Part shown: positions 1 through 18,215 of the stretch, in pieces | Numbering within the stretch: the first letter of the stretch is position 1 | How the letters are laid out: every line of letters starts with the position of its first letter | Source: Siphonodentalium dalli | Lineage: Eukaryota; Mollusca; Scaphopoda; Gadilida; Siphonodentaliidae | Direction of reading: 5' to 3' | Assembly (NCBI GenBank): GCA_032622095.1 | Contig: CP136061.1 | Span: forward strand, 261,362,077-261,426,076 | Length of the DNA: 64,000 bases | Notes under the pieces: model-generated | What the model saw: only the letters and a program-made list of their open reading frames with translations | Database searches by the model: none | Told to the model about the DNA's origin: nothing | Program-made: the position numbers and the translations under genes

Positions 1-77
1 TGCATGTTTAAAAAAATTATTTGGCAGCTTCACTTTAAATTAATTATTCTGTTTGAAAGTGCACATTCATTTGGCAG

Positions 78-131
78 GGGAGAATATACACAGCTTTAGG
101 TCACATGAGACGAAGACTCATTAGATTCAAG
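78..131 (+). CDS. candidate internal exon, unknown gene
   Basis: A 54-base segment is open in the phase-0 frame (18 codons, starting Gly-Arg-Ile-Tyr-Thr-Ala-Leu-Gly-His and ending Arg-Phe-Lys). It follows a 3' splice consensus (tttggcag) and ends AAG before gtatgt. The donor is repeated twice more just downstream, the same pattern seen at confirmed CTU1 donors, which is the main reason to take it seriously. I do not recognise the peptide and see no partner exons in the next several kilobases. It could be a chance open segment. Confidence 0.3.
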
Positions 132-163
132 GTATGTATAAGGTATGTATAAGGTATGTATCA
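130..163 (+). repeat. 11-bp tandem repeat of a 5' splice site
   Basis: The unit aggtatgtata occurs three times in a row, so three identical GTATGT donor-like sites stand side by side at the end of the candidate exon. Confidence 0.7.
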
Positions 164-279
164 TTTGCATTACTATTGGGTGACTAGGTAGAATGCAAAT
201 ATTTTTTTAATTTGTTCTGAGCCATTTGTTTAAAAGTAAACTAATCAAATAGGTGGGAGTATTTAACTGGTTATTTATA

Positions 280-431
280 CAGTAATGCCCTAATTAATTG
301 ATTCCTTTAACCACAGCAAAATTATGGGTAACTTTTCAGGATTTAGTCAGAAATATGGCTTTTTGCCATTCATCGGAAAGCTGTCCCCGAAAAGTTACCC
401 ATAATTCAATCAATTAATTAGGGCATTACTG
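280..431. mobile_element. MITE family A (TA-flanked palindrome), short copy
   Basis: Starts CAGTAATGCCCTAA and ends with the inverse, with TA on both sides. The interior (gggtaacttttcaggatttagtc...) is also palindromic, but one arm is partly deleted. The CAGT terminus and TA target suggest a Tc1/mariner-type non-autonomous element. The inverted symmetry continues about 12 bases outside the TA (aactggttat / ataaccagtt), so it may sit in another palindrome. Confidence 0.75.
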
Positions 432-892
432 TATCAATAACCAGTTTAATAACAGAACATATTGTTGTACTTGTCTGCCATTAAATCCAATCTATGCATC
501 ATGATGGTAAATGATCATGAAAATTATGAAGACATTTATTTTAGACCATGCTGATAACAAATGGCCAGAATAACGTACAACTAGTCACAAGCGGTATTCT
601 TTAATTTAGCTAAGTAGCCTTTTATAATTTTAAATTGGATTAGACATGGGGTTAAAATGTAGGGTCTGAATAACCTAAGATAGGACAATGCTTTTGGCCC
701 TTCATATGCAGATTAAAGAAATTGCAAGAAAAGACAACCTAATTCCTTGCACCAAAGAATTGTGCGGAATTCCTATTTATTAAATTGTCAAGGGGACTAT
801 TTTATCAAATGATATCTATGGGGACCAAAAGTGGAAACCCTGCATGTATTATAACCATAACTCATTTCCTTTTTAGATGAGATACTAGACAC
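432..892. other. no gene recognised
   Basis: AT-rich sequence without a supported ORF, splice-paired exon or recognisable repeat. Confidence 0.5.
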
Positions 893-1300
893 AAATTACT
901 ATTTCTTTGGATTCGGAGGTAAAACGTATTTGATTCGAGTCGAGGAACCCACCCTTCTAAGCTCAGAGTGATCAGATATCAATTTTTGAAGTTTGTTATT
1001 TTTTGAGATGTGGTCCACTTCCACTTGCTCAAATGGGCAAATTACGGACAAATTGTGGGTGTAAGATGGATAACTCTAAAATCAAGTGGTCATTATTGTT
1101 AATAGTAACCACTTGATTTTAGAGTTATCCATCTTGCACTAATAATTTGTCCATTTGAGTGCATGGAAGTTGCCCGACCACATCTAAAAAAAATAACAAA
1201 CTTCAAAATTTTTTATCTGATCACTCTGAGCTTAGAAGGGTGGGTTCCTCGACTCAAATCAAATAATTTTTTACCCCCAAAGCCCAAGAAATAGTAATTT
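893..1300. mobile_element. family F foldback element
   Basis: Long imperfect palindrome. The left arm reads attactatttctttgg, then ttgattcgagtcgaggaaccc, and the right arm is its inverse. The centre is gataactctaaaatcaagtgg and its complement around 1069-1131. The same arms recur at 9.4, 9.9, 11.3, 14.05, 17.3, 32.4 and 61.4 kb. The outer termini seen in better copies are missing here. Confidence 0.7.
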
Positions 1301-2580
1301 AGGGGTGCTTAATCAGATTTAATTGTGTGAAAATAAGAAACTGGTTATATTGAAAACAGCAACAAATATCCATGTACATTTGTACTATCAAGCAAGAATA
1401 CCGCTTAAGCTCATATGGTACCAAGCGCATGTTGCCCGCGATACCATCGGAGTGCTAGGGCCCTCTCTCATAAATGAGAGAGATCTTCCAATGAAAGGGG
1501 AAGACTTGCTAATATCATATTTTTAATAATATGAAAGTGTTTTTAAATGGAAATAATAAGTAACAAGAACCTTCAAGTCTAATATTTTTTATTTCTCTTG
1601 AAAAAAAGGTGTTTTCTTCTGGGTAAATCAATCACTCCAATCAAGCATATTGGTGGTATAACCCCGAATGCATTTCCTCGGGTTACAATAACCCCTGTGT
1701 TTCTTTTTTGAAATTGTATAGAAACTGGAATAAGAATAAGAGAAAGCCATTTTTATTTCTGAATTAATAATCAACTATATTTATTAACTCTTCTAACTCA
1801 CAGATGCAGATGCATTTGAAATTGTAAAAACTATACTTCAAAATTTAAATTTCACGGGGGACCTCTGACGATGACTGACCCGTTATGTTGCAAGCTAATA
1901 TGATTGTAACATAAAAAAACAGTCGAAACAATCGCTGAGTGCAACATCACATTTTGGCTCCACTGATGTTTCACGATTATTATTCCATTATGGCAATGAT
2001 AAGCGATTGTCAGGTGTCTAGACTATGTTTACCATACGTAGGCATGCGACATTGTCATAACACCTTCAGGTTACAATACACCAAATACAAAGTCGATATA
2101 ATAACACGGGGAATATATTTCTTAATGCTTATCTGTTCCTTAATAGTGTACTTCACTGTATGTGAAGGTCTCAACTCGAAATTCAATGCTTTTCTGTGAC
2201 TTTTGAGAGCCGTTAACGCAATAAACATTCAAATTAGTAGAGTGATTTCCCCTGGCGATACCAAGCTAGGATCAGAATAGAGTCAGCACTTGTCCTCCAA
2301 TCCCATTGTCTATATAAAAATGTATGTATAATTTGCTATATGTGTTATTGAAATCAGACAAATAAATATGTTTAAACTAACCTAAGTCAACTATATATTA
2401 ATCATGTACAGGTGCAGGGCGGTCCATATTATGTTCCAAGAATCCAGATATTTAGACTCCTACCCATTTTCTATGATGGACTTACGTGATTGGCATCGCT
2501 TGAAATCGACAGCTACCAAGCAGTCTGTGCCCTTTTTGTACTCTTGAATAGAGATATGATTAAAATATAGCAAAATGTCT
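1301..2580. other. no gene recognised
   Basis: Only short ORFs of random composition (for example at 1323-1526 and 1939-2199), with no domain and no splice support. Confidence 0.5.
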
Positions 2581-2965
2581 GATTATTTTGAAAAAAAATT
2601 ACGTGTTTTGTTATTTGTATGTCCATCCATATGTTCCCTATTCTCGTTTCCAGATGATAACTTTAGTAAATCTGAACTGAATAGACTGAAATTTCAATGA
2701 AATTTGTTATGCAAATTTGGCATAAAACTGGCTTTGATAAGAGGACTCATTGGCGTTATTTGCATTTTCTGTTCGAGAGGTATCCCTCTTTGTTTATCTG
2801 AATGTATTGGATTTTATCCTGCACTCATGTATCTGAACCATGGGTTATTGGATCTCAATGAAACTTAGAATTCAGATTTGGCATCATGAGGGCTTTCAAA
2901 AAAGAATTCATTGACGTTGTTCACATTTTTAATTCAAGAGTGTTCCCTATTCATTTATTATGACA
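2581..2965 (+). repeat. diffuse mollusc-type dispersed repeat
   Basis: Contains the phrases gtccatccat, ccagatgataactttag, tcaatgaaatttg and ccctctttgtttatctga. These recur in similar order at 31.1, 55.7-56.2 and 63.0-64.0 kb on the same strand. No coding potential. Confidence 0.6.
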
Positions 2966-3126
2966 CCATAATAATTCATGTAAGTATGCTCACCTGTCTT
3001 CCTGAACTCACTCAGGTGAATGTGCGTTCTGCCCATTTTCTTCAAACCCTACAAAACAATCTAGTTTTAGGAAATTCATGTTTATATAAGCTAATGTATT
3101 TATATTGCATGAAGACTATTCCTTAA

Positions 3127-3314
3127 CCCTTTGATTTGAGTGCCAAAATAAGTCTGTTAAAGAATATAAGAATATATTATTAAAATTGTAAAAAAAAAAA
3201 AACCCATTGTTAGGCCAATGCATTCTCTTATATATGGTTGACTCGCATTTATAAGAGAATGCATTGGCACAGGGTATATGGCTTGATACAAAAATTGACC
3301 TGGCACTCAAAGGG
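3127..3314. mobile_element. TTAA-target MITE, CCCTTTGAGTGCC subtype
   Basis: TTAA at 3123-3126 and 3315-3318 flank inverted ends CCCTTTGA...GTGCC / GGCACTCAAAGGG. The interior carries a degraded form of the ccaatgcattctcttatat...ataagagaatgcattgg hairpin. TTAA target and CCC termini fit a piggyBac-type non-autonomous element. Confidence 0.75.
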
Positions 3315-4230
3315 TTAATTCTTGGTTGTATGTACAAGCACTAAAAATTTTAAATCCCGTTTTCAACACTATGCCCTACCTGAATTGGTAACTTTTGTAT
3401 CATTTAAGTTGATATGCCCTATCACTAACTCAAAAAACCACATATATCTTCTACATGTATATATCTTTGATATCAACACATTTCCCCATAAATATTGGTG
3501 GGATGGGTGGCATAAGTATTCAGCAATTTAATGTTTGGTTTGAATAGTTACTATGGTAGTAATCCGGCCAATGGTGACTATACAAATATCTCAATCCAAG
3601 TTCTAACATGGTATTTTAGTGTGATGATACACACATCTCTGTGAGTGGTACAGCACAGGTAGTCAGGTAGTACCGGTGCGTAACATCCTATAATTATTGT
3701 GGTATTGAACTTGATGATCACCTTGGTGGTTGCTCCATTATGAAGTCATGAATAATTAAATTAAGCTCCTAAATTTGTTATATTATATTTTCAACCCCCC
3801 CCCCCCCCACCCTTTTTAAAGAATTATTCAATTATAAATGTTAATACACAAACCAATATTTAACTTTTCACATAATCCTTTTGATCACCATTGACTTACT
3901 TCTCTCATAATTACGCCTATGCAGTTCTTTCTTGTTGCATGCACAAGGGAGCCTTGTATTTCATCAGCACTGTTGATGTATGATCCAAAGTGTTGGTCTG
4001 GAATCTGAATTGTCAACAAAAAGCTGGTATACATTATGTATACAATTGCCTTTATCTTTTTTTCATCTTTTTAATGACTTAGAATTTTACTGTCTGTTAA
4101 CATTTTTGGTTTCCGACCGATAACTCCAGTTTGGATTATTTGATCTGAACCAAAGTAGGGCATGTGTATTTCTCAGCTAAAGATACAGGCCAAGTTCGAA
4201 TATGGGTTCCGTCCCATTATTTTTACATGA
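3315..4230. other. no gene recognised
   Basis: Low-complexity and AT-rich sequence with a C-tract near 3797-3808. No supported exon. Confidence 0.5.
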
Positions 4231-4234
4231 GTTA

Positions 4235-4500
4235 CGCCCCTTTTTAGCTCAACTTTTATACTTTGTAAAGTTTGAGCTATTGCCATGGCTTGGTATCCGT
4301 CGTCCGTGTGTTCGTGTGTGCGTGATGCGTCAACAATTTCCTTTAGCACGGGCTACATGCAGTTCGTATTATTATGAAATTTGTCATGGATGTTAATATT
4401 GACATGTAGATGAGAACGAGTGATTTTGGGGTCGTTCGGCCAAAAAACATGGCCACCAGCAGCCATCTTGGATTTTACTTTAGAATTCATGAATATATCA
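4235..4500 (+). repeat. dispersed repeat with short inverted head
   Basis: Begins with the hairpin tagctcaacttt...aaagtttgagcta (4237-4273), followed by ccgtcgtccgtgtgttcgtgtg and then ggccaccagcagccatcttgg. I associate this layout with dispersed repeats of mollusc genomes (recalled, not searched). Confidence 0.5.
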
Positions 4501-5360
4501 GATATACTTTAGCCTAGTACCCAGGCCAGCAAACGTATTTGAGGCCTGGTATAGGCTGAGCTCATGAATATATTCATGAGATGCGGTTGTCACGTGATAT
4601 TTTAGATTGCGAATTTATTTACGATTTTTATTGCTACGGTAAGATCATCATTTTTATCTACAATTTATATTTGATTACATCTATTTATATCGATAATCAA
4701 TAAGTTACACCATTAGTGTTTCAATATACAACAGTGACAGTGTTTATTGATTTCGGGAATGATATGAAAAGTGTGTTTAATTGTGACCAGTTACCTGTTT
4801 TCGACTCATGGAGTCATGCGTTTCAAGCATGTCTGGTTCGTTTTTTATTCATAGGCGAAAAAGTTGCTTGCCCATAATGTATATTTAGATGTTGATTTCT
4901 TAGCAACACTCAGACCATTATTTTGACACCAAAAATTCCACGATGGGCCGATGGGTTCATTTTTTCTGTGACATTTTGTGACTATTGCTGTTTATGAAAC
5001 TTGAAAGGTCAGTCAATCATGATTCATATGTTAATTTTTTAGCAATGATACAGTTAAAATTAAGAATTTCTTTCTTGTGTGTAATCAATTTTTATTAATT
5101 TCATTTAGAATGGAGCGAATACCAAGTTTTATACCGAATGATGAAAATAAGCCGGCGCCGTCATCAATGTCTACATGTACATCTAGATCCATGTAGATCA
5201 AAACGCTCAAGGGAATTTTCAACACCGACCCGACAAATACCTCTACTAGTACAGGATTCAAAGTGCCACAATTTTTATGGTTTGTTTTATAAGCTACCGG
5301 TATATATGATCTATTTTGTCACATGTAAAGAAAATATAAAAAAAATGTTCATAGTATTTA

Positions 5361-5443
5361 GTACTAGATCATGCCATGAACCTCTACTAATGCTAGCGGG
5401 CGTTAGCATTAGTAGAGGTTCATTGCATGATCTATATTAGTAC
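5361..5443. repeat. perfect hairpin
   Basis: The arm tactagatcatgc(c)atgaacctctactaatgct is followed within a few bases by its inverse. It could form a stem of about 38 bp. Confidence 0.8.
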
Positions 5444-5532
5444 ATGCACTGGCCGGGGGGGGGGGGGGGGGGGGGGGGTTCTACTCAAATTTGTTGTTTT
5501 TTAATGCCAGCTTTATATCAGTTTCTACAGCA

Positions 5533-5597
5533 CATTGGTGAGTGCACCTCAGTTTACACTGAGGGGATTGTCAGTTCGAATCTGACTGGAGACCGCT
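5533..5597 (+). other. tRNA-like stretch (SINE head or tRNA relic)
   Basis: Shows an A-box-like ttggtgagtgcac, an anticodon-arm-like cctcag/ctgagg stem with an off-size loop, and a perfect T-arm gtcag-ttcgaat-ctgac. No convincing acceptor stem closes, so I do not call a functional tRNA. Confidence 0.4.
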
Positions 5598-5879
5598 GGT
5601 GTTCTAAAATATGAACTTTAGATTGCATTATTATTATGAGAAATTATTATAATATTATATATATATTATATTATAATATTAATATATTAATGCAATTGTA
5701 CTTGCCAGATGCCAGTACATGTCCAATGAATTTTTTTTTAATTTACTTTACATGAGATAAAATAGATCATATATAGCCTATTAATCTAACCATAAAATTG
5801 TGGTGCTTTGAATCCTGTACTGTAGAGGTGTTTGTCGGGTCGGTGTTGAAAATTCCCTTGACCGTTTTGATCTAGATCG

Positions 5880-6345
5880 ATAACCATGGAAATTGTATAT
5901 ATATCTGTGCAGGAGACGTCCCTTTAATCAAATATACTAGAGCTCCAGGGTGGAGACACATTCATGGGATGCTGATAGTGATATGCATTTGGAAGTATGT
6001 TTTTTCTTCAATTTTCAAGTCTATTTACATGTAGGCCCACCATATGAGGGAAGAAGTAACCACGAATTCCCTTTTTGTGACCATGGACATGCTATATACC
6101 TGTGCAGGAGATGTCCAATTAGTAGGCCTTTACTGAATTTTTTTTACAGCTCCGGTTTGAGACACACATCCAAGGGAGAGGGATGCTGATGATATGAAAA
6201 TAGGGGTTTTTACCCAATTTTAATCAACAAGTACACCATAGGAGGGAAGCAAGGCCCCAAGGACCCCTAATTCCCTTTTTATGACCATGGAAATTGTATA
6301 TACCTGTTCACGAGATGTCCCTTTAATCAATTATACTAGTTAGAA
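5880..6345 (+). repeat. tandem repeat of about 200 bp, 2.3 copies
   Basis: The phrase accatggaaattgtatatacctgtgcaggagatgtcc recurs near 5884, 6080 and 6283. Between copies are agctccggtttgagacacacat and aggagggaag...aattcccttttt. Copies have diverged by substitutions and small indels. Confidence 0.7.
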
Positions 6346-6504
6346 CTTAATGTATTTAAATCAACATTTTGTATTGAATTAATATTGACCAGAGCAGCTC
6401 ATGTACCAAGCCAGAAAATAAGCAGCCTGACATTTGAAAATTGAGATTCCCAGTGGTTGAATTTTATCACGCATTATCCCAGTACAATTGATTGTCCCCC
6501 GACG

Positions 6505-6545
6505 TTTCCGTTTCTGTTGAGATGGGGACCCTCTGATCGGATTGA
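6505..6545. repeat. family F terminal fragment
   Basis: Reads ggggaccctctgatcggattgagtacctttaa, the right end of family F, without a left partner nearby. Confidence 0.6.
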
Positions 6546-6911
6546 GTACCTTTAACAAACGCTGATAGTGAAATTATTTTTCAACCCTATAAAAAATTTA
6601 AAATGCACGAAAAATAGTATTGAACCAATTTTGTTACAAGTGATATCATTAACCACTTACATCATTTTGAGGCCCATGGCCATGGGTCGCTCTGATCCAG
6701 AGCTGCCCGTCGTCCTGGCAGACCTGCAGCCGCTGCCGATTCAGATTCCATGCAATGTTTGGACTCAAATGTCCAAACATTTTTATAAAATTCGATGAAT
6801 TGGTTATGTCCTGGACATTAACAAACCCATCTGAAAAGGGGTAAATAGATGTGTTTAGACTAATGTGTTAAAGATGCCATGTCCAATTTGACATAATTAA
6901 ACCAGCATCTA
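6546..6911. other. no gene recognised
   Basis: The ORF at 6568-6798 has no domain features. Nothing else is supported. Confidence 0.45.
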
Positions 6912-7124
6912 CAGTACTGCTCTAAGTAAGCGACTTCTTAACCACAGCAGAATTATGGGTAACTTTTCAGGATTTAGTCGGAAATATGGCTTGTTGCCAT
7001 TCATCGGAAAGTTCTCCCCGAGAGCTTTCCGATGAATGGCAACAAGCCATATTTCCGACTAAATCCTGAAAAGTTACACATAATTCTGCTGTGGTTAAGA
7101 AGTTGCTTACTTAGAGCACTACTG
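6912..7124. mobile_element. MITE family A, full-length palindrome
   Basis: A 213-bp near-perfect palindrome from CAGTACTGCTCTAAG to its inverse, flanked by TA on both sides. The centre is around ctccccgagag (7013-7023). Same family as 280-431, 30835-31047, 34664-34805, 35622-35750, 39769-39845, 40332-40460 and 58258-58471. Confidence 0.85.
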
Positions 7125-8126
7125 TATGTCTATTCGATAACAGTAAATAATTAGATTAGACACAAGACTGACAAGAGTCCATTTATACAAGGTTTTGGAA
7201 AAGAGATCGACTTTCAAAAGATTCAATGATCGTCTCTGATAAAGAATGTCCATTCTTCCATTGGCTGTGTCATGTGAATGATAATGCAAATTAGCCATTT
7301 TTTGTGTCAATCAGATTGTGCATCTTTAATTCCAACTTAATTTGGCGTACATTTTGGAAAATATAATAACGATAAGATATATGAAATTTCATGTTTATTC
7401 ACATATTTTGAAGTCTCCAATATAACATGAATACATGTACAATTATGAGATAATTTTTTCAGAATTAAACTATAAATGAATAATTTATAAAGAAACTGTA
7501 TGTCTCATGATTAAATTAAAATCATTCAATACTCTCCACTACAAGTACGTAGACTTTCAAATATATCAGGTTCACAATAATATACTCTGGTAAAAGCCAA
7601 GTAAAACCTATGTGAAAAGGAAATAGCCTTGTAAATTCCAATTAAACAGTAAAGTCAGGTTTACAATGATATACTCTGATAAAAGCCGATGACTAATAAA
7701 ATAAGAAAAGTTGTCTGGCTTTCTGTATATCCGACTAGTATCGAAAAGATTCACTTGATGTTGGCAATTCAAATAGTTATTCAGATATATAGAGTTATGT
7801 TGGGATATAAGATGTTTATGAAATGAGTTCGATAAATGTTATTCACAAGTTGTAGTTGTATACTGGAAATTGAAAGTATATTTCCCCAATTCGCCTCTTT
7901 GTTAGTGCAACAAAATTGGACAAGAATTTAACTTTGATGAACAAAGCAGTCCCCCCTCTACTCACATAATGTGGGTCACACAAAGCTATGATATGATAGA
8001 CATTTTATGTGATATAATAGATATGTCATATGAGTACATCATAACATTAATGTTTTGACATTTATAAACAACAAAATAACTCAAAACACACACAATTCAG
8101 CATATAGCCAAACTTATCAAACATAT
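7125..8126. other. no gene recognised
   Basis: AT-rich. A short direct repeat (caggttcacaataatatactctggtaaaagcc / caggtttacaatgatatactctgataaaagcc, about 7567 and 7657) is the only structure seen. Confidence 0.45.
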
Positions 8127-8292
8127 AAAGGTGGTCTACTTGTATCTCTTCCCAGGAAGTTTTGATATAGCTTTAAATCGGAAAGTATAAAAATTATGTT
8201 GTTGTAATTGGGACTCGGAACTTCCGAATCCAAATTACAACAACCCTAATTTTTCCGAGTCGGAAGAGATTGCAACACATAGACCATCTTTA
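8127..8292. mobile_element. small foldback MITE (family D)
   Basis: Ends aaaggtggtctacttgtatctcttcc and ggaagagattgcaacacatagaccatcttt are inverted. Inner arms ggaaagtataaaaatta...gttgttgtaattgg also pair with their inverse. End-like fragments occur near 11603-11624, 12594-12616 and 58513-58537. Confidence 0.65.
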
Positions 8293-8587
8293 ATATTATG
8301 GCATAATTATTAAACAAAACCAAGATATAACCACATGTCAATACAATGAAGCACATTTTCAAAAACAAATGTTAACATACAAAACAAACATATATACCTC
8401 TACTCATCTCAACATCTCGAAACTGAGACTGATGTCTCAGCATCCTGACGAATGTCCTTGAGATAACTGAAGTAAAGAATATAAGATCAGCGTGTATTGA
8501 GCAACATTTTAGTACTATATTGTACTTATTTTGAAGAAAATAAGACCATGTCTGAGTCACAAAAAAGTGCTCCTTTTATCAAAGTTT

Positions 8588-8751
8588 TGAAGAACTCTAT
8601 CTAAAAATATAGTATTTTTGCCAAAAATGCATTTTATTCTTCAGGTAATAAAATCATCTGTATAGTAGGGTCCAGCCATGTCTAATCTTCATTTAGAGAA
8701 TACAACAGTAGTCTGGAAGGGAGATGGTACAAGGAAATAATGCCTACCATA
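8588..8751 (+). pseudogene. decayed inverted copy of the SGNH exon start
   Basis: Matches, on the opposite strand, the end of the intron and the first part of the SGNH exon at 12316-12530. It has the same gaagaactctatctaaaaatat intron tail, cag acceptor, and gtccagccatgtct followed by aatcttcatttagagaatacaac. It lacks an internal piece of about 34 bases, runs into a TAA in the original frame, and stops matching at tgcctaccata. It is a partial, non-functional duplicate about 3.7 kb from its source. Confidence 0.8.
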
Positions 8752-8931
8752 TCAAAGTTTTTATCCACTAAATTTTATGATTCAAAGCATTTCACAGCAT
8801 ACCTCATTTAAATTACGTATAAAAAAAAGGTAAGCTTGAATGAGCCATGCCAGTTTAAATTTATCTTCTAATTTGTCTGGAAAAAGGGGGGAGAGAGAGA
8901 GCGGAAGGAAAATTTCAATTAAAGCTTGAAA

Positions 8932-8956
8932 ATAATAATAATAATAATAATAATAA
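8932..8956 (+). repeat. (AAT)n microsatellite
   Basis: Eight uninterrupted aat units, preceded by a purine-rich gagagagag stretch. Confidence 0.9.
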
Positions 8957-9367
8957 GAGTTTTCTATTTTCTACAATGTGGTCTCTAATCTTATTAAAGG
9001 GACATAAGGCACTCACTGATAGTAAAACATCATAAGAACATAACCATGTTCACGAAGAATTTTAATGAAAAAAAAATAGATAAACCATGTTCTGTTCTTA
9101 TTTTATTATTGACAACTCTTCATTGAATAGATATGACATATAAAAACAGTTGGTGTGTTAACATTACAGTTACAGTGCAAGCCAATATATTCCAGAAAAC
9201 ACAGATTTTCAACTTTACAAATCATTATGATCTTTCATATTTACTCCCTGTGTGTGCTTTATGTCCTTTATGTAATGCAGTGAGAATGTATAATAATTAT
9301 TCACAATGGGGGGGAGAAAACAAAACAAAATGTCATACTGTGTATCCTCAAACCTATAAAATTTTAG
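8957..9367. other. no gene recognised
   Basis: The ORF at 9133-9483 runs into a family F element and has no domain. Confidence 0.45.
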
Positions 9368-9371
9368 TTAA

Positions 9372-9850
9372 AGGTACTCAACCCGTAAAGAGGGTCCCCA
9401 TCTCAACAGATTCCAACAACAACAATCCGATCAGAGGGTCCTATATTACTATTTCTTTGGCTTTGGGGGTAAAAAATATTTGATTCGAGTCGAGGAACCC
9501 ATCAAACAAAGCTCAGAGTTATTAGATATTGATTTTTGAAAATTCTTATGTTCTCGAGATGGGTACCAATAACTGCCGTCAATTTGGTAACCTGCTCGAG
9601 ATGTTACGCCAAAATTCTATTCAAACAGACAAGGATGGATAACTCTATAATCAAGTGGTAATAATAACGAATTTATGACTTTCTTCTGGGCCAGAAAGAA
9701 TTCCCGATAATGAAAAATAATAGATTTCTAAAACCGATATCTAACAAATCTGAGCTTTGATGGGTGACTTCCTCGACTCGAATCAAATATTTTTGACCCC
9801 CGAAGCCATTGAAATAGTTATTGAGAGGAGTTTTTACGGGTTGAGTACCT
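9372..9850. mobile_element. family F MITE, complete, TTAA target
   Basis: Flanked by TTAA at 9368-9371 and 9851-9854. Terminal inverted repeats AGGTACTCAACCCGTAAA / TTTACGGGTTGAGTACCT match over 18 bp, and inner arms carry the ttgattcgagtcgagg palindrome. 479 bp, no ORF of note. This copy defines the ends of the family and shows that it uses TTAA targets. Confidence 0.8.
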
Positions 9851-9857
9851 TTAAAGG

Positions 9858-10153
9858 CCTCAATCTGAATTAACGCTCGCAAATTACTATTTCCTTGGCT
9901 TCGGGGGTAATAAATCATGGTTTCCGCTATACCGGCAGGGGGTCGGTCCCCTTGACGGCCCTGTTCCCCTCGCCAAGTTTTCCCCTCCTGCCACACCCCA
10001 GGACATACTGCATGTCTATAAAGGTATAAAGATGTTTAAAACTTCTGAATTTTGGGCAATTAATCCATTCTGATAACAGAAGCGGCATTTAAAAAAATGT
10101 TGTTGTTGTTGGAATATGATGATATGGGGACCGTCTGATCGGATTGAGTATCT
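9858..10153. mobile_element. family F copy with unrelated GC-rich middle
   Basis: Left arm caaattactatttccttggcttcggggg and right end ttgggcaatta...gatcggattgagtatct-TTAA belong to family F. Between them is a GC-rich stretch (about 9925-10008, ccggcagggggtcggtcccc...) not present in other copies. Confidence 0.6.
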
Positions 10154-10900
10154 TTAATTAAAGGTCCACTTAACTGTATAGTAACTTAATTTCTTCATCA
10201 AACAAATTGATCCATGTTATGTTATGGACATGATATTTGAAACTATGGTTGCCTGATAAACCACTGGTTGAGGGTCATGCTAATTTGTTATAACGTTTGT
10301 GGTTACTTCTGAAATGATGTAATGCTGGTATGTGATGCTATGAAGAAACAATGTTATTTAAAAACATGTTATTTTCTTGATCATATGCATGAAACTGAGA
10401 AGTTAGTATTCTATGTCAACTTTAATCTAATGTCATTGTTCGGCTATTTTACCAACAAGTGAAGATGGCTATTCCTGTCATTTGGTAACATCAGCAGAAG
10501 ATGTTCCATACAGATATTAACTTTTCATCGATTCTTTTATACTAGTCCAATACTGCAAAAATGAGAACTTTAGAAAATCTAACGGTATACATTTATTTAC
10601 TTAACATATAAGTTTGCCCTACCAAATCAGCAGGACTGAACAACATCATAGCAGATTAGCAGGATCATTTAGTCAGCAGTATGATAAACAAATACACAGT
10701 ATTAAATTAAACTGGCCATTGAAAACAATTGGAGAAAACTTTGTCAGCTTAAATCATGGAATTCTAACTTAAAACATTAATCAGCATTAGTAGCTAATGT
10801 CAACCGCTTCACATGAATCAGTTGAACATTGGTAGCTAATAGCGACTCATGTTCGCAAGTCAATACAAAATTATGCCTGCTATCATATATAGAGGATATG
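10154..10900. other. no gene recognised
   Basis: AT-rich, no supported exon or repeat. Confidence 0.5.
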
Positions 10901-10904
10901 AAAT

Positions 10905-11027
10905 GAGTGTTTCTCTCATATGATATTGATGATACAAGTCTAAGAATTTTCAGTTTTCTCGAGCCTCGGGCGAGAGAAAACTAAAAATTGGTGACTAGTT
11001 TCATAAATATCATATGAGAGAAACACG
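10905..11027. repeat. imperfect hairpin
   Basis: gtgtttctctcatatgatat...cagttttctcgagcc pairs with ggcgagagaaaactaaaaattgg...atatcatatgagagaaacac. A structurally similar hairpin lies at 33478-33645. Confidence 0.7.
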
Positions 11028-11244
11028 AATTACATATTCTATTTATCATATGACACCTATAAATTGATTATGATGTCCAAAAAATGTAACATTTGCAATT
11101 TGTACCAGGGTATAAAATCAAATTTTCTAGACTTTACTTTTTACACTCAGCAATAACTTATATCTTGGCAATTCATCATGAGTTGAAACACGAGTGAGTG
11201 GCTGAAATGGATTAATTGATACATAATGATAAATATGAGCCCAC

Positions 11245-11530
11245 CCATTAATGCTCAGAGTGATCAGATATTGATTTTTGAAGACTGTTATCTTTTGAGA
11301 TGTGTACTATTAATTGGACCAGAAACACATGGTCTAACAGGCAAATTGCAGATGAAGATGAATAACTCTAAAATCAAGACCACAAAGAGTTGAAATAACA
11401 AATTTCAAAAATTTATATCTCTCTGAGCATTGATGGGTAGATTCCTCGACTTGATACAAATATTTCTTACCCCGAAGCCAAAGAAATTGTAATTTAAGAG
11501 TATCTGGTTGGATTGAGTATAATATACAGC
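11245..11530. mobile_element. family F copy, truncated
   Basis: Contains cccacccattaatgctcagagtgatcagatattg and the inverse arm ctctgagcattgatgggtagattcctcgacttg...gaagccaaagaaat, ending tctggttggattgagta. The left end is lost. Confidence 0.65.
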
Positions 11531-11765
11531 AATCAATATGGAACAATTTTACCACTCGTGTTCAATAATTTATGCCCTGGAAACTATTCAAAACATATTT
11601 GGGAAGAGATAGAACATCTTTAACTCTAGTCCATAGATACATTTAAATTTGATAAGTTGATAACATTCATTTATTTCAGTATTCTTCGAACTGTTATGTC
11701 TCCCTTGAATCTCTTGAAGCAAATTAACAAATGTAATAAATATATAGAGCTACGCTCATGCTGGA

Positions 11766-11771
11766 TTTATT
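11766..11771 (-). terminator. candidate poly(A) signal for the - strand gene
   Basis: AATAAA on the minus strand, about 117 bases beyond the stop codon at 11888-11890. Confidence 0.45.
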
Positions 11772-11887
11772 TGGACACATATAAATTATGTATTGTTACA
11801 TTATATAAGTTATAACGTGAATTCTGACTTGAAATGTTTTCAATGACCCATCATGTTAATTTGCTTACGATGTTAATTCTGAAGCCA

Positions 11888-12471
11888 TTAACTCAACTGA
11901 CGAATCAACTGAATTATTGGCTTCAGAGTTTCCATCATTTCAGATGTGAAAATGAAGTTTCCTTCGTCTGACAAGTGAACCCCATCTTCATATAAGAACT
12001 TATGTTTGTAAGAGATGCAAGAGTGTGGAATGAAAAATGTCCAAGGGGTGTCTGAAGTGAAGGTCTCAATAGCAGAGTTTATGTGCTTTTGAGAGAGCTC
12101 CACACCACGCACACTTCGGATTGTTTTTGCATTCCACTGCAGCCTAGGAAATAAAGCAGAGTATCCAATTCTACACCCTGGTAACATTGCCATTAATTTT
12201 TCCAAATCCTCTTCAATGGCCAGTTTCAAATGTGAATGTTTTCTCCCCCCCATATCATTGGAACCACAATGAATAATTAGAATGTCAGGTTTTTTTTCTG
12301 TGATGAGATCCCTCTCTATGGTAGGCATTATCTCTCTCCATTTCCTTCCACCCTCTCCCTTCCAGACTACAGTTGTATTCTCTAAATGAAGATTCGACAT
12401 TTGGTGCTGAAGTACGAACTCTGCCGCCCTCCAGACATGGCTGGACCCAACTATCCAGATGATTGTATTAC
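11888..12471 (-). CDS. SGNH/GDSL hydrolase-like terminal exon
   Basis: A 584-base exon preceded by atttttcag and ending at TGA. It begins in phase 1 (completing Gly), then Asn-Thr-Ile-Ile-Trp-Ile-Val-Gly-Ser-Ser-His-Val-Trp. The expected catalytic features are present: a Ser after Gly-Ser in block I, GSND in block III (oxyanion Asn), and Asp-Gly-Val-His before Leu-Ser in block V. Length (193 residues) fits a compact single-domain SGNH fold. No signal peptide. The substrate cannot be told; the domain may come from a transposable element. A partial decayed copy lies inverted at 8588-8751. Confidence 0.8.
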
Positions 12472-15400
12472 CTGAAAAATAAAATGCATGTTTGGCAAAA
12501 ATACCATATTTTTAGATAGAGTTCTTCCCCATTGATTGATATGATATAATATAGTTATATAACACTTATTACAGGAAGTAATAATCCTTCTTTATATATG
12601 GTCTATCTCTTCCCATCAAGTCAAGAACCAGCCTAGAGATTTGGTGAAGTGACTTCTCCCTGTTTGGTTATTAGGGAGAAGTGAACTAACATCACCTTTC
12701 TTTGATCCAATATTATTATACAACACACGAGGCCATTTAAAAAACCATTGTAAGAACACCATTATAATCAGTAAATATATTGTAAACATGCTGTTAGGAC
12801 ATATGCATACTGGTATATGAGTGAGAAGTCACTTCTCCCAAGACAAAAATAGGGAGAAGTGAAACATTTTGGGGGGAAGATGACTTCAAAGTCGACCTCC
12901 AAGTCATATATCAATAGACAGAGCACACACACCCGCAACAATGCAAATCTTAATCGAGATTCGAGAATATATTATCGAATGAGTTATTAAAATTTCCAAA
13001 TGCACTTGACCTTGATCCAGTTCAAAGTTTCTTGGTTTATTGGTGTAAGATAAGTTCAATCTGAGTGTTCAATTATGTTTTAGTTGGCTCGCGGTTTATT
13101 ACTAGTCACTTTGCAACATATAGCAATAGAAATTAATCAAACCCACCATTTATATTATGAGGTTCTTGCTGCAAGCATTCTGAAAAAAAATGACAAGAAC
13201 AATTATTGGATTTTCAAAATTGGTAAGAATCCTTATATCCTGTTTAAGGAATATGGGACCATTTGGAGGAGAATTTTATTCGAGTTAATCAATTCAATAT
13301 CTATACCACAATCGACTCAAACAATCATGCAATTTTGTTTAGCCACGTCCATTGGATGGGGTATCGTTTAGCCACGTCCATTGCAATAAAGAGCGTTACT
13401 TGTTAAAACCTCCGTATAAGGTATAGATAAAGAGCGCTGTTGTCTTAACCCCCGCCGTGCCTTTGCGGTGATTTGGGAGTGGATAAAGGGTGCTCAGGGC
13501 TTCTCGAAAACCCGACTACGACGATACCCGTGGGATTTTACACTTACATACGGAATTTGATCTCAATCTGTACACGCGTTTTGGATTCTATGAAGTACAC
13601 ACACACATATATACGAAGTCTCAAATTATATAGTATAGATAATACAACGAAAATCTTAATCGATAATCTATTATCAATTTGGTTTCAGATGCCATAATGA
13701 TATATTTTGTGAGAACTATGCACCGTCCATAACATTGTGTTCTGTATTTATTCCACACCATTGTCAGTTAAGTTCAATCCAAAACTGTCACCTTTGCTGA
13801 TACTATAACTACCTTTATTGTGATATATGTCTGATAAATTTAATAAGGGTATGAACTTAGAGATATAGTATTCAACTCACCTAAAACTGGTATGGAAGGC
13901 CCAATATTGTGATTGGCTCCATCATTCTAAAAATTAAGAATACACAGCATAAGTCACTACTTTTGACAAGAAAGATTAAAAACTCAAGAGCAGAAAACCC
14001 GAACGAAATGATTGAATACTAATCAGAATGTGCTCATAGTAGTGAACATCTGGCTTCAGGGGTAAAAAGTATCTGATTCAAGTCGAGGAACTCACCCATC
14101 AAAGCTCAGAGTTATCAGATATTGATTTTTGAACTGAAGTATTTGTCAATGAGGATTTAGTAAACAGAGGGTTAAAGATGTAGTCAGGGTTCCAGGCCAA
14201 TATTTTAGGAAACCTGTTTTCTGACATACACCATAAATTGTATGTATTGAGCATGAATTGGACAGTCAGAATATTTCTAAGGGAACTGTCTGTACTCCTC
14301 AACGAGTATTTAGAGTAAATGAAATGTTTAAAAGAATACTGCCAGTATTGCTACATGTATTTCTGACATTGTTACAGCAAGCCATAAACATAATACAATA
14401 TTAATATATCAGGCATACCTCTTCTACATCATCATCCAGTTGTTCCAATGGATCAACCTCTTTGACCAGCTCTTGGATTCGACGCTTGTCTAAGATTCTA
14501 CCTTCACTTGCAGCTGAAGTGGTCACCGGTAGTGATACTGGTATAGGTGCCTCACTCTGAAAAGAACAGATTCAACGATCAGTAAAACAACAGTAAACCT
14601 ATTCAGTTATAAAAGTATCCATTTGAATAGTCTACCCTTTCTATGCTAAACATATTCACCCATCCAGTTATTAAATATAACAAACATTTGCTTGCAAACT
14701 CATTCTAGGTAATGTTCAGATGAACTTATATTCTTTGAAATCTGTAGACATTTGTTCAAGGTATGACTTTTACAAATTCAGGACGGACAGACAGACGAAT
14801 GATCGGAACGCATTACTATATCCCCACCGCAAATATACAATTTGGCGAGGGATAATTACTAAATAAACACAATGCTATTTTCTCTCTACAGCAATGTGAG
14901 AATCTTCGGGTGGCCCCCAAGCTGTGAATGCCAACAACAACGACATTGTTGGCATACCTCTTTTAGGTACGGGTATCATAATTCCTCTAGATTAAAAAGA
15001 CAATTAACTCATTGGAAAACAAATGCGTTGATTCTTATGTCTGTCATTCCTAGGAACGGGGGAAATTTTCATCGGGTCAGTTTTTTCCGCCCGATGTACC
15101 TTAAATCATACCTCTTTTAGGGAAGGGTACCGTAATTTCTCTTGATTAAAAAGGCACAATTAGCTCATTCAAAAACAAAAAATGTCATGTTTCTGACCAA
15201 CCACGCCAGTGGCGGGCCAACCTGCTAGTTATATATATAAATATAGATCGTTGCACTTAAAAAGTGATAAAAACATATTGTTATTTTAGACTAGTATAAC
15301 TTTGAAGTGCCTACCTCTGTTATTCTGCCTATCTCATAGACTTTCCATTGATCACCATACCGTCCCACGAAATTGCCATATGGTGGGGGCCTTGGTAGCT

Positions 15401-16658
15401 GAAATGAATAAATAACCATATAATCTTCAATAAGCAGGAATGAAGTTTCAATCAGCATGTATTCCAAATATTCAGCAAAGATATGATTGGTGGTTAATTA
15501 TTGTCACTTTAGATCAGATTGTTTTACAAGTAAGCACATCCAGCATAATGTTACTAACTTCCTAGTTAAATTTAATTAATTAATTTTCATCTTACTAGGG
15601 ATTTACCCTATACCAAAGGGAGCGTGTTTCATCTAGTAGAAACACTAAAGCAAGACTTTATTGTTAATATCCAAAACCAATGGTGAAAGTAGAACAGTTA
15701 GGTGTTGCGAAACTACATGAGTATCTGTCATCGGTATCACAACAAATATTATAAGAGTAATACATTATTATTGACATAATCAATATTGTGACATTCTATA
15801 TGATATCCCATATTTTGCTGAACAAAGAATAAATAGAAGGTTGATAAAAAAAAAATGTTAATAACATGAACACGGGGTGGAGGGTCGTTTAAAGTAGAAA
15901 AAAAACATGTGATGCAATTTGTTTCCAAAAAACATATTTGTCCAAAGATTAATTAGGAAACACCCAGTTAATTATAACACAAATGGATTGTACAAATATA
16001 TTTGAATATAATTGACATTTGATGGACAAATGAACATTTCAAATTATGGGGATGGAGGCATTATTTTATATAAATATATAAATTTGGACAGCCTCTGGCC
16101 ACTATTTACATATTTAAAAATTTGGACAGAGCCTCCGGCCACTATTTACATATTTAAAAATTTGGACAGAGCCTCCGGCCACTATTTACATATTAAAACA
16201 TTTGGACAGAGCCTTCATGCTTCAGGCAGTATTTACATATTCAAAAAATTGGAAAGAGCCTGCAACAACTATTTACATATTTAAAAATTTGAAGAGCCTC
16301 CGGCCACCATTTACATATTTAAATTTTGGACAGAGCCTCCGGCCACTATTTACATATTTAAAAATTTGGACAGAACCTCCGGCAACTAATTACATATTTA
16401 AGATTTTGGACAGAGCCTCCGGCCATTATTTACATATTTAAAAATTTTTGAAAGAGCCTGCGACAACTATTTACATATTTAAAATTTTGGACAGAGACTC
16501 CAGTCACTATTTACATATTAAATTAAAAATTTGGACAGGATGATCTGGCTATAAATATTAAATATTTCAAGAACTCCCCCCACTAATGCCCTATAATATA
16601 TAAATCATATTTATTTTTGTTTACTCACAGTCAGCTTTCCATCACTGATGAAATTCAT
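11888..16658 (-). CDS. TAF12-like N-terminus joined to SGNH hydrolase domain (5 exons)
   Basis: Five exons join in one open frame of 293 codons plus stop: 16658-16629, 15398-15315, 14556-14419, 13926-13881 and 12471-11888. All junctions are GT-AG and phases agree (0, 0, 0, 1). Residues 58-84 match the start of the TAF12 histone fold (RILDKRR, QELVKEVDP, EQLDDDVEE). Residues 101-293 are an SGNH/GDSL hydrolase-like domain with block I GSS (about 108-110), block III GSND (169-172) and block V DGVH (262-265). TAF12 is a TFIID/SAGA subunit that pairs with TAF4 or ADA1. The remaining histone-fold helices are absent from this chain, so it could not form a normal fold. By eye I found no exon for them further down the - strand; they may lie outside the window and be reached by alternative splicing. 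The hydrolase domain resembles those carried by invertebrate mobile-element proteins. It shares its upstream region with CTU1. Confidence 0.6.
12616..12905. mobile_element. hAT-like MITE family E ('gggagaagtgacttctccc')
   Basis: About 290 bp, with the order gaaccagcctagag, gtgacttctccc...gggagaagtg, accattataatcagtaaatat, gttaggacatatgcatactggtat, gagaagtcacttctccc, gggagaagtga and gtcgacctccaag. Same layout as 42442-42746, 31815-33020, 35518-35905 and 47483-48507. The ends are degraded here. Confidence 0.7.
12906..13880. other. intron of the - strand gene, no other gene seen
   Basis: AT-rich. A 19-base direct duplication cgtttagccacgtccattg occurs at about 13337 and 13366. Confidence 0.5.
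13881..13926 (-). CDS. linker exon of the TAF12/SGNH gene
   Basis: 46 bases between tttttag and gtgagt, starting in phase 0 and ending in phase 1, as both neighbours require. Encodes Asn-Asp-Gly-Ala-Asn-His-Asn-Ile-Gly-Pro-Ser-Ile-Pro-Val-Leu. No domain; it may belong with the hydrolase exon as its N-terminal linker. Confidence 0.6.
14050..14145 (+). repeat. family F fragment in intron
   Basis: tctggcttcaggggtaaaaagtatctgattcaagtcgaggaactcacccatcaaagctcagagttatcagatattg, one arm only. Confidence 0.65.
14419..14556 (-). CDS. TAF12: TAF12 histone-fold start exon
   Basis: 46 codons, phase 0 at both ends, between ttttcag and gtatgcc. After a Ser/Thr/Pro-rich lead (residues 39-57) comes Gly-Arg-Ile-Leu-Asp-Lys-Arg-Arg, then QELVKEVDP and LEQLDDDVEE. 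This closely matches the conserved opening of the TAF12 histone fold (family motif LVREVDP..QLD.DVEE). In TAF12 the next residues form the long helix MLLQIADDFI; no exon encoding them was found by eye on the - strand down to position 1. The next splice-compatible exon leads to the SGNH domain instead. Confidence 0.85.
14955..15180. repeat. tandem duplication of about 150 bp in intron
   Basis: catacctcttttaggtacgggtatcataattcctc...attaaaaagacaattaactcattggaaaacaaa (from about 14955) recurs from about 15108 with small changes. Confidence 0.65.
15315..15398 (-). CDS. exon 2 of the TAF12/SGNH gene
   Basis: 28 codons, phase 0 at both ends, between tttcag and gtaggc. Encodes a Pro-rich start (Leu-Pro-Arg-Pro-Pro-Pro-Tyr-Gly) followed by GRYGDQWKVYEIGRITE. 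I do not recognise it as part of known TAF12 proteins, whose N-termini vary widely. Confidence 0.7.
15399..16060. other. intron, no gene recognised
   Basis: AT-rich intronic sequence without recognisable features. Confidence 0.5.
16076..16550. repeat. 41-bp minisatellite in intron 1 of the - strand gene
   Basis: About eleven imperfect copies of atttggacagagcctccggccactatttacatatttaaa. ORFs across it on the + strand are artefacts of the repeat. Confidence 0.9.
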
Positions 16659-16686
16659 CTTAAATTTGTTTGATGATTATGACAGA
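16629..16686 (-). CDS. first coding exon of the TAF12/SGNH gene
   Basis: The exon runs from an acceptor (ttatttttcag) to the donor gtgagt. ATG at 16658-16656 opens the frame Met-Asn-Phe-Ile-Ser-Asp-Gly-Lys-Leu-Thr, ending phase 0. About 28 bases of 5' UTR precede it, so at least one further non-coding exon lies upstream. Confidence 0.7.
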
Positions 16687-16914
16687 CTGAAAAATAAAAA
16701 AAGAGAAAATAATTAGTGTTATATAATAGAGTATTATTCAACATACCATCATTACTGGTGAGAAATTTACTACAAAATTAGTGCACAGATGTAAGATGAC
16801 ATGGGAAATGCCAAAGGATATGTACTACTAGTATTTACCTCAAATAATCTTACACTTGTTCGGGTGAGTTAAACTGTTAATTCAGTATTTAGACAGTATT
16901 TTATATCCAACTGG

Positions 16915-17225
16915 AGGAATATGGCATTCTACTAGACTACTACGTCACCGAAAATCTCAAGCGAATAGACGTTACCCCTCCACAGAAAACATCACTTGAA
17001 CTAAGCTCAATTGTAAATATTTCGGGGCACAACAATTGGCGATAAATTGCCAAAAATGATTTCACCATCGAGAGTCACTGAATTTAATTAATATATACTA
17101 ATGACGGTGTGTGTTGTCAGTTTGGATTTATTATTTGTACACATAAATAAAGTTTGAGCAAAATTATCCTCATTTCTATTTGTTCACCCTACTGGAGTGT
17201 TTCACATCACTTTAAAGAAGCACCA
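16915..17225 (-). repeat. dispersed element holding one copy of the 53-bp minisatellite unit
   Basis: Read on the - strand it aligns with 54540-54840: gtgatgtgaaacactcc...caaatagaaatg, then ttttgctcaaa, ctgacaacacac, cagtgactctcgatggtgaaatcattttt, atatttacaattg and gcttgagatttt. Here the gtgatgtgaaacactcc unit (17167-17217) is single; at 53.9-54.6 kb it is an array of about 13. Confidence 0.75.
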
Positions 17226-17257
17226 ATACTCGGCAATAGTAATAATGAGCAATAGTT

Positions 17258-17416
17258 GAAGGTACTCAATCCGATCAGACCCTCATAAATTACTATTTCT
17301 TTGGCTTTGGGGGGGGGGGGGGGGGGGGGTAAAAAATAATTGATTCGAAAATAAATAGTAATTTATTATTTAGCCTTAGGCCTGCTTAATGATTAATCGG
17401 ATTGAGTAAGGTACCT
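17258..17416. mobile_element. family F, short deletion copy with G tract
   Basis: Starts gaaggtactcaatccgatcaga and ends cggattgagtaaggtacctttat. The middle is reduced to attactatttctttggctttgg, a tract of about 20 G, and part of the right arm. Confidence 0.75.
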
Positions 17417-18015
17417 TTATTATAGGCTTTAAAGTAACAAAGAGCATATGGTATATTATATCAGTTGAAAACATATAAATATGGTAGCTTTTAATATCTG
17501 GAGAGTGCCATATAATACTAACAGGTGATGTTTACCTCAAAATCAGATGACTAATATTAGATTTCAAAATTTAAATTAATTGAAGTTGAAGTTGAACTTG
17601 GCAAGTTGAAGGGGCACTAGTGACTAGACTAATTAATATACTACTAGTACTAATAATATCATTAAGAAATTGGGTGAGCCTACCTTACATATTGAGCATT
17701 TTTTACATTAATTGACACGGCCCTAATATAATTTACGCAAAACAGCATTAATTAAATAACAAGACTTTGACTTAATCACAAATCAGCAATCATTTCAATG
17801 TCAATATTGACCAATTCAGAAGTCGTTAAATTACGGTCAATAAACATTTATAATTATAATTTATCATGGCTATAATACAGTATAGGCCCCAACAATTACG
17901 CATTATTGGCGACAAATTTATACGGATACTATTTGTCGTAGTTTTATGAAGATTATTAGTCATTTTTCTGTTCAAAAATACAAAAATATCCAACAGAAAA
18001 TATCTTCAAACCTAC
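17417..18015. other. 5' intron region, no gene recognised
   Basis: AT-rich. A short run of tgaagttgaagttgaacttggcaagttgaag lies near 17580. Confidence 0.5.
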
Positions 18016-18215
18016 CGCTCTAAAGAGTTAAGAATGGCGGTCGAAATATTGCGCGGAATGCTAAAGGTCAAATCACAAAGGTCACAAAGGTCAAGTTGGC
18101 GGACGACTCCTTCAATATCCAACTTTCTGCATGAAACTTATTGTCGAAATTGTGTAATCGCTTTTTAAAGTTTTATTTCGTTTCTGATAATAATTTTCAA
18201 TTTCAAAGGACAGCC
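18016..18215. promoter_or_regulatory. candidate bidirectional promoter, CTU1 and TAF12/SGNH gene
   Basis: Only about 200 bp separate the CTU1 start codon (18216) from a - strand donor-like site (agagcg|gtaggt, exon edge at 18016) that suits the 5' UTR exon of the divergent gene. The interval is richer in CG than its surroundings (gcggtcg, gcgcgg, ggcggacg). It holds three same-strand AAAGGTCA boxes at 18063-18070, 18077-18084 and 18086-18093; the last two are spaced as a direct repeat. No TATA box stands out. Promoter function is inferred from layout. Confidence 0.55.

Follow-up and report, generated by a model that had tools for sequence, protein, structure and literature searches.

Probable capture of a host TAF12 exon by the split SGNH hydrolase gene of a 25-kb Rehavkus-like transposon in the scaphopod Siphonodentalium dalli

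A stretch of 64,000 nucleotides of the Siphonodentalium dalli genome (GCA_032622095.1, contig CP136061.1, positions 261,362,077 to 261,426,076; hereafter the window, with positions counted from its first letter) contains a reading frame that joins the start of the TAF12 histone fold to an SGNH hydrolase domain. Which of the two genes received the other, and what brought them together? The explanation favoured here, with a probability of roughly 85%, is that a Rehavkus-like transposon with a transposase and a split SGNH gene copied an exon of the host TAF12 gene and spread it to four loci.

The minus strand from 16658 to 11888, spliced by script, yields five exons with GT donors and AG acceptors and a single open frame of 293 aa, as the first-pass annotation had proposed; a small further exon, 4b (13179-13147), absent from that annotation, fits as well. 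The features of the gene are as follows.

11888..16658, minus strand: putative SGNH accessory gene with captured TAF12 exon, spliced and translated; 293 aa, or 304 aa with exon 4b
16629..16658, minus strand: exon 1, MNFISDGKLT; also in the TAF12-bearing copies C2, C1_52 and C4_152 and in the TAF12-free copy C7_159
15315..15398, minus strand: exon 2, LPRPPPYGNFVGRYGDQWKVYEIGRITE; from splicing and genome query
14419..14556, minus strand: exon 3, TAF12-derived, phase 0-0, 46 codons; without 18 + 75 nt of the host exon
13881..13926, minus strand: exon 4, an SGNH-gene exon; present too in the TAF12-free copies C4_816 and C7_189
13147..13179, minus strand: exon 4b, ECLQQEPHNING, phase 1-1; seen whole or in part in five further copies
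11888..12471, minus strand: exon 5, SGNH hydrolase domain and stop codon; from Pfam, the relatives' alignment, splicing and a PDB profile
11766..11771, minus strand: AATAAA, possible polyadenylation signal, 117 nt 3' of the stop

Exon 4b is optional in the frame, its inclusion giving the longer product, and omission of the TAF12 exon with exon 4b kept also leaves the frame open. Since exon 3 is symmetric (0-0), the frame is unbroken with or without it. Exons 1-4 are found again in four genomic copies, so the five-exon arrangement is not a product of chance. The TAF12-hydrolase join is real at the DNA level, as a reading frame.

The match of exon 3 to the Pfam profile TFIID_20kDa (TAF12) is confined to positions 2-24 of its 68 (E 9e-4, 20.1 bits, cut-off 27). 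It is sub-threshold, but over 93 of its 138 nt exon 3 has 99% identity with an exon of the host TAF12 gene, which makes the TAF12 origin of this histone-fold start, first recognised from the letters, secure. The complete fold is absent from the chimera and, because only its first part is present, a TAF12-like histone-fold dimer would not be expected. The complete host TAF12 gene lies on the same contig at C1:192.70-192.71 Mb, 68 Mb distant, with the exon that contains the captured segment at C1:192700588-192700800, the histone-fold exon at C1:192706239-192706355 (Pfam, 57.5 bits) and the C-terminal exon at ~192.709 Mb. The first-pass annotation had considered that the join might be an alternative 3' end of the genuine TAF12 gene, whose remaining exons would then lie outside the window, and had proposed a search of the wider contig for them. 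The near identity of exon 3 to the host exon agrees with this idea. Against it stands the complete gene 68 Mb away, which has its own copy of the segment, and the search for the remaining exons near the window gave none: a single histone-fold match to Pfam was obtained genome-wide, the one at 68 Mb, and an exon-by-exon search, which weak matches may escape, returned no further histone-fold or C-terminal exons near the window. An alternative 3' end is thereby reduced to the least probable of the readings, with next to no weight.

The hydrolase exon reaches Pfam Lipase_GDSL_2 with E 1.5e-5 (26 bits, below the cut-off of 32.9). Its Ser11, Gly39/42, Asn72, Asp163 and His166 are invariant in five relatives, with the catalytic residues of the SGNH blocks assigned after the descriptions in PMC4021074 and PMC3905857. 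A profile of the same five relatives matches PAF acetylhydrolase and the LINE ORF1 esterase 4c1b in the PDB at ~1e-5, and the SGNH blocks noticed at first sight in the last exon are borne out by these residues and matches. A single-sequence structure model of the exon has a pLDDT of 47.6, too poor for a structure search.

The direction of the transfer is read from relatives of the gene. Searching the genome with exons 1-2 and the beginning of exon 3 gives 17 matches at E<=1, eight of which (window included) lie <=5 kb from an SGNH match, judged against the best 150 of 322 SGNH candidates, while three are the other TAF12-bearing copies. Of the TAF12-free copies read, C3_98, C7_159 and C4_816 align with the window on either side of the TAF12 piece, and C7_189 only downstream of it. 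Together these four hold exons 1, 2, 4, 4b and the SGNH exon, the complete set being seen in no single one. Because exons 1, 2, 4 and 4b accompany SGNH where TAF12 is missing, the hydrolase gene received the TAF12 piece, and not the reverse; the match of the TAF12-free copies across the insert, with the alignment of the capture edge given below, likewise makes the SGNH gene the older frame. Exons 1, 2, 4, 4b and 5 are predicted to form the transposon's own SGNH gene.

The initial suggestion that a TAF12 copy had captured a hydrolase exon thus stands as far as the hydrolase is transposon-borne, and is reversed as to direction. Uptake of such an exon by a TAF12 gene copy, turning it into a new host fusion gene, would account for the mobile-element nature of the hydrolase and for the open frame; the company that exons 1, 2, 4 and 4b keep with SGNH in TAF12-free copies, the presence of one TAF12 exon alone and the position of the entire gene inside terminal inverted repeats (TIRs) render it very improbable. 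A search for other captured host exons in the equivalent intron of two TAF12-free elements listed dispersed repeats (best 40 of 3533 and best 40 of 6801 candidates). Tandem repeats of a 48-bp (16-residue) unit, GQYGDWKVYEIGRLPE, with 18 repeat matches listed, occur in the exon 2 copy at C3:38801500-38803700, which sits in a 300-codon open frame.

The piece that entered the hydrolase gene can be delimited on both sides.

14128..14690, minus strand: segment copied from host TAF12, ~560 bp (exon and flanking intron), edges to within ~10 bases

Homology to TAF12 spans 14128-14683. The downstream capture edge lies at ~14128-14133, with TTC shared (read by eye from aligned C4_816, C7_189, window and host TAF12). 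The copied piece includes the flanking introns of the one exon, and since introns were copied too, an RNA route is disfavoured. The reading of exon 3 as two TAF12 exons fused without an intron, as in a copy of spliced RNA, was rejected: it corresponds to one host exon only, from which 75 nt are deleted in frame. Missing from all four captured copies are 18 nt of the host exon, and from the window and C2 copies the further 75 nt; both exon deletions are multiples of three, which many of the intron indels are not.

The window element (C1:261354988-261380206, 25.2 kb) extends from ~7.1 kb left of the window to position 18130. Its parts inside the window, for which no strand is given, are these.

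1..18130: part of the 25.2-kb TIR transposon inside the window; from inverted end partner, ends, target site duplication (TSD) and TIR alignment
17731..18130: right TIR, 412 aligned columns, 84% identical to the left TIR
18131..18139: right 9-bp TSD, ATGAAACTT, repeated exactly at the left flank of the element
16080..16538: minisatellite in intron 1, period 40, 11.3 copies, 1.6 kb inside the right end

Inverted partners were recovered by a search with the right end, that of the window copy lying ~7 kb left of the window start. The terminal base 18130 is the stop point of four other copies too. Among nine two-ended elements the 9-bp flanks are identical in six and agree in 8 of 9 bases in one; the remaining two show a TSD mismatch (4 and 6 of 9 bases). 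The left 7.1 kb, outside the window, contain an uninterrupted transposase-like stop-to-stop frame of 1,856 codons, and the C2 element has the same frame from end to end with no stop. The SGNH gene and the transposase frame are on opposite strands, the right end of the element being the 3' end of the transposase strand. A Pfam PHD match in this frame (E 8.6e-5, 22.9 bits) falls just below the cut-off of 24, and among PDB entries a profile of five relatives matches GATA zinc fingers (6e-9), the TAF3 PHD finger (7.7e-6) and Ulp1 protease (0.003). No Pfam transposase or MULE domain is found at E<=0.1 with the whole frame or at E<=10 with six pieces of four relatives. Two of the four relatives give a weak SWIM match (E 0.04, 0.068). 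An invariant motif, C-x-F-H, and a CxC...CxH stretch resembling SWIM would fit a MULE-type DDE transposase. The insertion site is preceded by CAAGATGGCTGC, which we assume to resemble a YY1/promoter motif; with the TAF3-like PHD finger of the transposase, this motif, at one site only, hints at promoter targeting.

Seven other open reading frames of the window, three inside and four outside the element, have no Pfam match at E<=0.01. A second, partial SGNH-exon sequence is present in the element at window 8589-8751, on the strand opposite to the gene and 72% identical to the C3_98 SGNH exon. At 50496-51095 (minus strand) a 199-codon frame that has no Pfam match shows a Cys/His pattern, presumably like that of LINE reverse transcriptase C-termini.

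Besides the host gene, the TAF12 exon is present at four loci: the window, C2:148.73, C1:52.27 and C4:152.88 Mb. Both ends were read for the window, C2 and C1_52 elements, each of which is flanked by a perfect 9-bp TSD that differs from those of the other two; of the C4_152 copy the right end alone was read. The C2 element is without the stretch corresponding to window 4512-12734, having ~0.7 kb in its place; most of that stretch is present in C3_98, from which we conclude that the loss occurred in C2. Homology to the downstream part of the window copy stops at 13731 in both C1_52 and C4_152. No SGNH match is found at the other three TAF12-bearing copies among the best 150 of 322 candidates, so that, of the four loci, the window copy would be the sole one still joining the TAF12 exon to SGNH. 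Over >5 kb the window copy shares 99% identity with the C2 copy, which might suggest that segmental duplication multiplied the TAF12 piece instead of transposition; the homology ends at the TIR end, however, and three distinct TSDs surround the window, C2 and C1_52 elements, and duplication is accordingly given only a few chances in a hundred, slightly fewer than the host fusion gene. About 560 bp of host TAF12 were copied at the DNA level into the SGNH gene, and at least three of the four loci are TIR elements with TSDs.

As to the mechanism of the favoured capture by the transposon, the TAF12 piece may have been taken up through a template switch in the course of replication or gap repair, the route suggested for animal Pack-TIRs, and the elements would move by cut and paste. 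The TAF12 exon could enter the gene and leave it intact because its own splice sites and symmetric phase came along. The spliceosome would include it, giving a predicted esterase with 46 extra residues.

Divergence differs between the two parts of the chimera. The SGNH exon shows dN/dS of 0.26-0.43 against seven relatives (pairwise counts from non-independent pairs after removal of codons containing gaps or stops; no significance test). In the TAF12 piece, host and captured C1_52 copy differ at 7/213 exon and 37/413 intron positions (p 0.008) and window and host at 4/138 and 44/413 (p 0.005), whereas between the captured copies of the window and C1_52 the counts are 4/138 and 12/429 (p 1). If constraint acts on the host copy alone, divergence between host and captured copies should be lower in the exon than in the intron, as it is here. 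The dN/dS values thus point to constraint on the hydrolase, and the equal exon and intron change between captured copies gives no sign of it on the TAF12 exon. The esterase would be the part kept by the transposon; the TAF12 exon most probably rides along as a tolerated passenger that does not disturb the frame.

It is nearly an even bet, falling just short of one, that the chimeric gene is inert, intact only since the copy is young, and makes no TAF12-SGNH protein; the capture history would be unchanged by this. Such inertness is in line with the TAF12 exon being unconstrained since capture, with the missing SGNH exon in three of the four TAF12-bearing copies and with the broken state of all seven close SGNH relatives compared, each of which has indels, five with a stop in the window's frame. 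It is less easily reconciled with a window copy that is intact across all exons and splice sites, with a transposase uninterrupted in two elements and with exon deletions that are in frame.

Whether the SGNH gene belongs to the transposon more generally was assessed from genome-wide counts, which are lower bounds since only the best candidates were scored. An SGNH match lies <=20 kb from nine of 20 transposase loci (45 matches merged, from the best 25 of 449 candidates), with a chance per locus of 0.0028; one of the nine SGNH neighbours (C3:204.1 Mb) is a 35-residue fragment only. The SGNH places number 138 (150 matches minus 12 second pieces of the same locus, from the best 150 of 322 candidates). 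A distant family, 33% identical, includes a 15,174-bp element (C3:249654433-249669606) with transposase and SGNH inside ~50-bp TIRs and a 9-bp TSD, CTATTTTCG; GCA starts the elements of both this family and that of the window. The distant locus at C2:11.63 Mb has an inverted pair (179 columns at 76%) and no TSD, and that at C1:79.90 Mb has no inverted pair within 8 kb. The predicted SGNH protein most likely serves the transposon as an accessory enzyme. That SGNH is a standing accessory of the whole giant Rehavkus-like clade, and that its split gene takes up in-frame host exons which are spread and maybe expressed, is a more tentative proposal, to which we give somewhat less than even odds.

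Three more SGNH matches occur near the C3_98 element (C3:98494338-98527312), two of them in open frames of 190-192 codons and ~32% identical. A Ngaro-like retroelement at C6:154507000-154512000 combines RT/RNase H, a tyrosine recombinase and an overlapping SGNH frame, its SGNH being 28-30% identical. Dozens of ~30% SGNH places score nearly as this element does and may belong to the same family.

Among described groups, Rehavkus is the closest, because of the 9-bp TSD, the long TIRs, the PHD finger and the 40-bp minisatellite near the 3' TIR. As described by Dupeyron et al. 2019 (PMC6446971), it is a sister group of MULEs with few elements, from arthropods (insects) and annelids, and has 9-bp TSDs, TIRs of 26-400 bp, a PHD finger in the transposase and a minisatellite near the 3' TIR. 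The window element, with its 9-bp TSD, ~400-bp TIRs, sub-cut-off PHD match and minisatellite before the 3' TIR, resembles Rehavkus in its anatomy and is here called a Rehavkus-like (MULE-related) giant element. It differs from the elements of that account (PMC6446971) in its 25 kb and in its SGNH accessory gene; the length is large, given that arthropod MULEs are reported at 1.4-10 kb (PMC13359780).

Among the matches listed from the open-access literature, neither a TAF12 capture nor a TIR transposon with an SGNH gene is found. The TAF12-loaded elements are a multicopy animal Pack-TIR: TIRs and a TSD surround the piece, the parental TAF12 copy was found, and multiplication left distinct TSDs. 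Animal Pack-TIRs, 370 of which are reported from 100 genomes (PMC8277862, Tan et al. 2021), and plant Pack-MULEs resemble them in the intron-bearing host fragment between TIRs, in copy number, in the far parent and in the distinct TSDs, as set out there (PMC8277862). The fragments of that report, however, are short (median 224 bp) and flanked by TIR transposons (PMC8277862), whereas here the host exon lies in frame within a gene of a 25-kb element with a transposase frame. Captured host exons also serve as extra exons in the CACTA element Tgm-Express1 of soybean (PMC1947982); that plant element sits inside a host gene and its splicing is proven by cDNA (PMC1947982), unlike the present case, which is drawn from DNA sequence. 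In the window family a DNA transposon has shuffled an exon, and most of the steps can still be read: the donor, the TAF12-free relatives, the capture edge, the TSDs of the loaded copies and one intact chimeric frame.

SGNH domains as accessories of mobile elements are described for Ngaro elements, known with SGNH from Xenopus (PMC9210276), and for CR1/L2 elements (PMC9210276, PMC3905857); these are retroelements with reverse transcriptase, whose SGNH, in the accounts cited, is not encoded by a split gene. The LINE ORF1 esterase has been proposed to act in the binding of lipids and membranes (PMC3905857). An intron-containing SGNH gene on a DNA transposon is likewise seen in the texim genes, moved by Helitrons in fish (PMC4021074), a Helitron differing from the present element in not being a TIR element and, in that account, in having no captured TAF12 exon. 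SGNH in a Rehavkus-like clade would, if the proposal is true, parallel its presence in LINEs, Ngaro elements and Helitrons. Should the link hold across the clade, one more class of mobile elements would have an SGNH esterase, and the unexplained role of these esterases in transposon biology would become easier to test.
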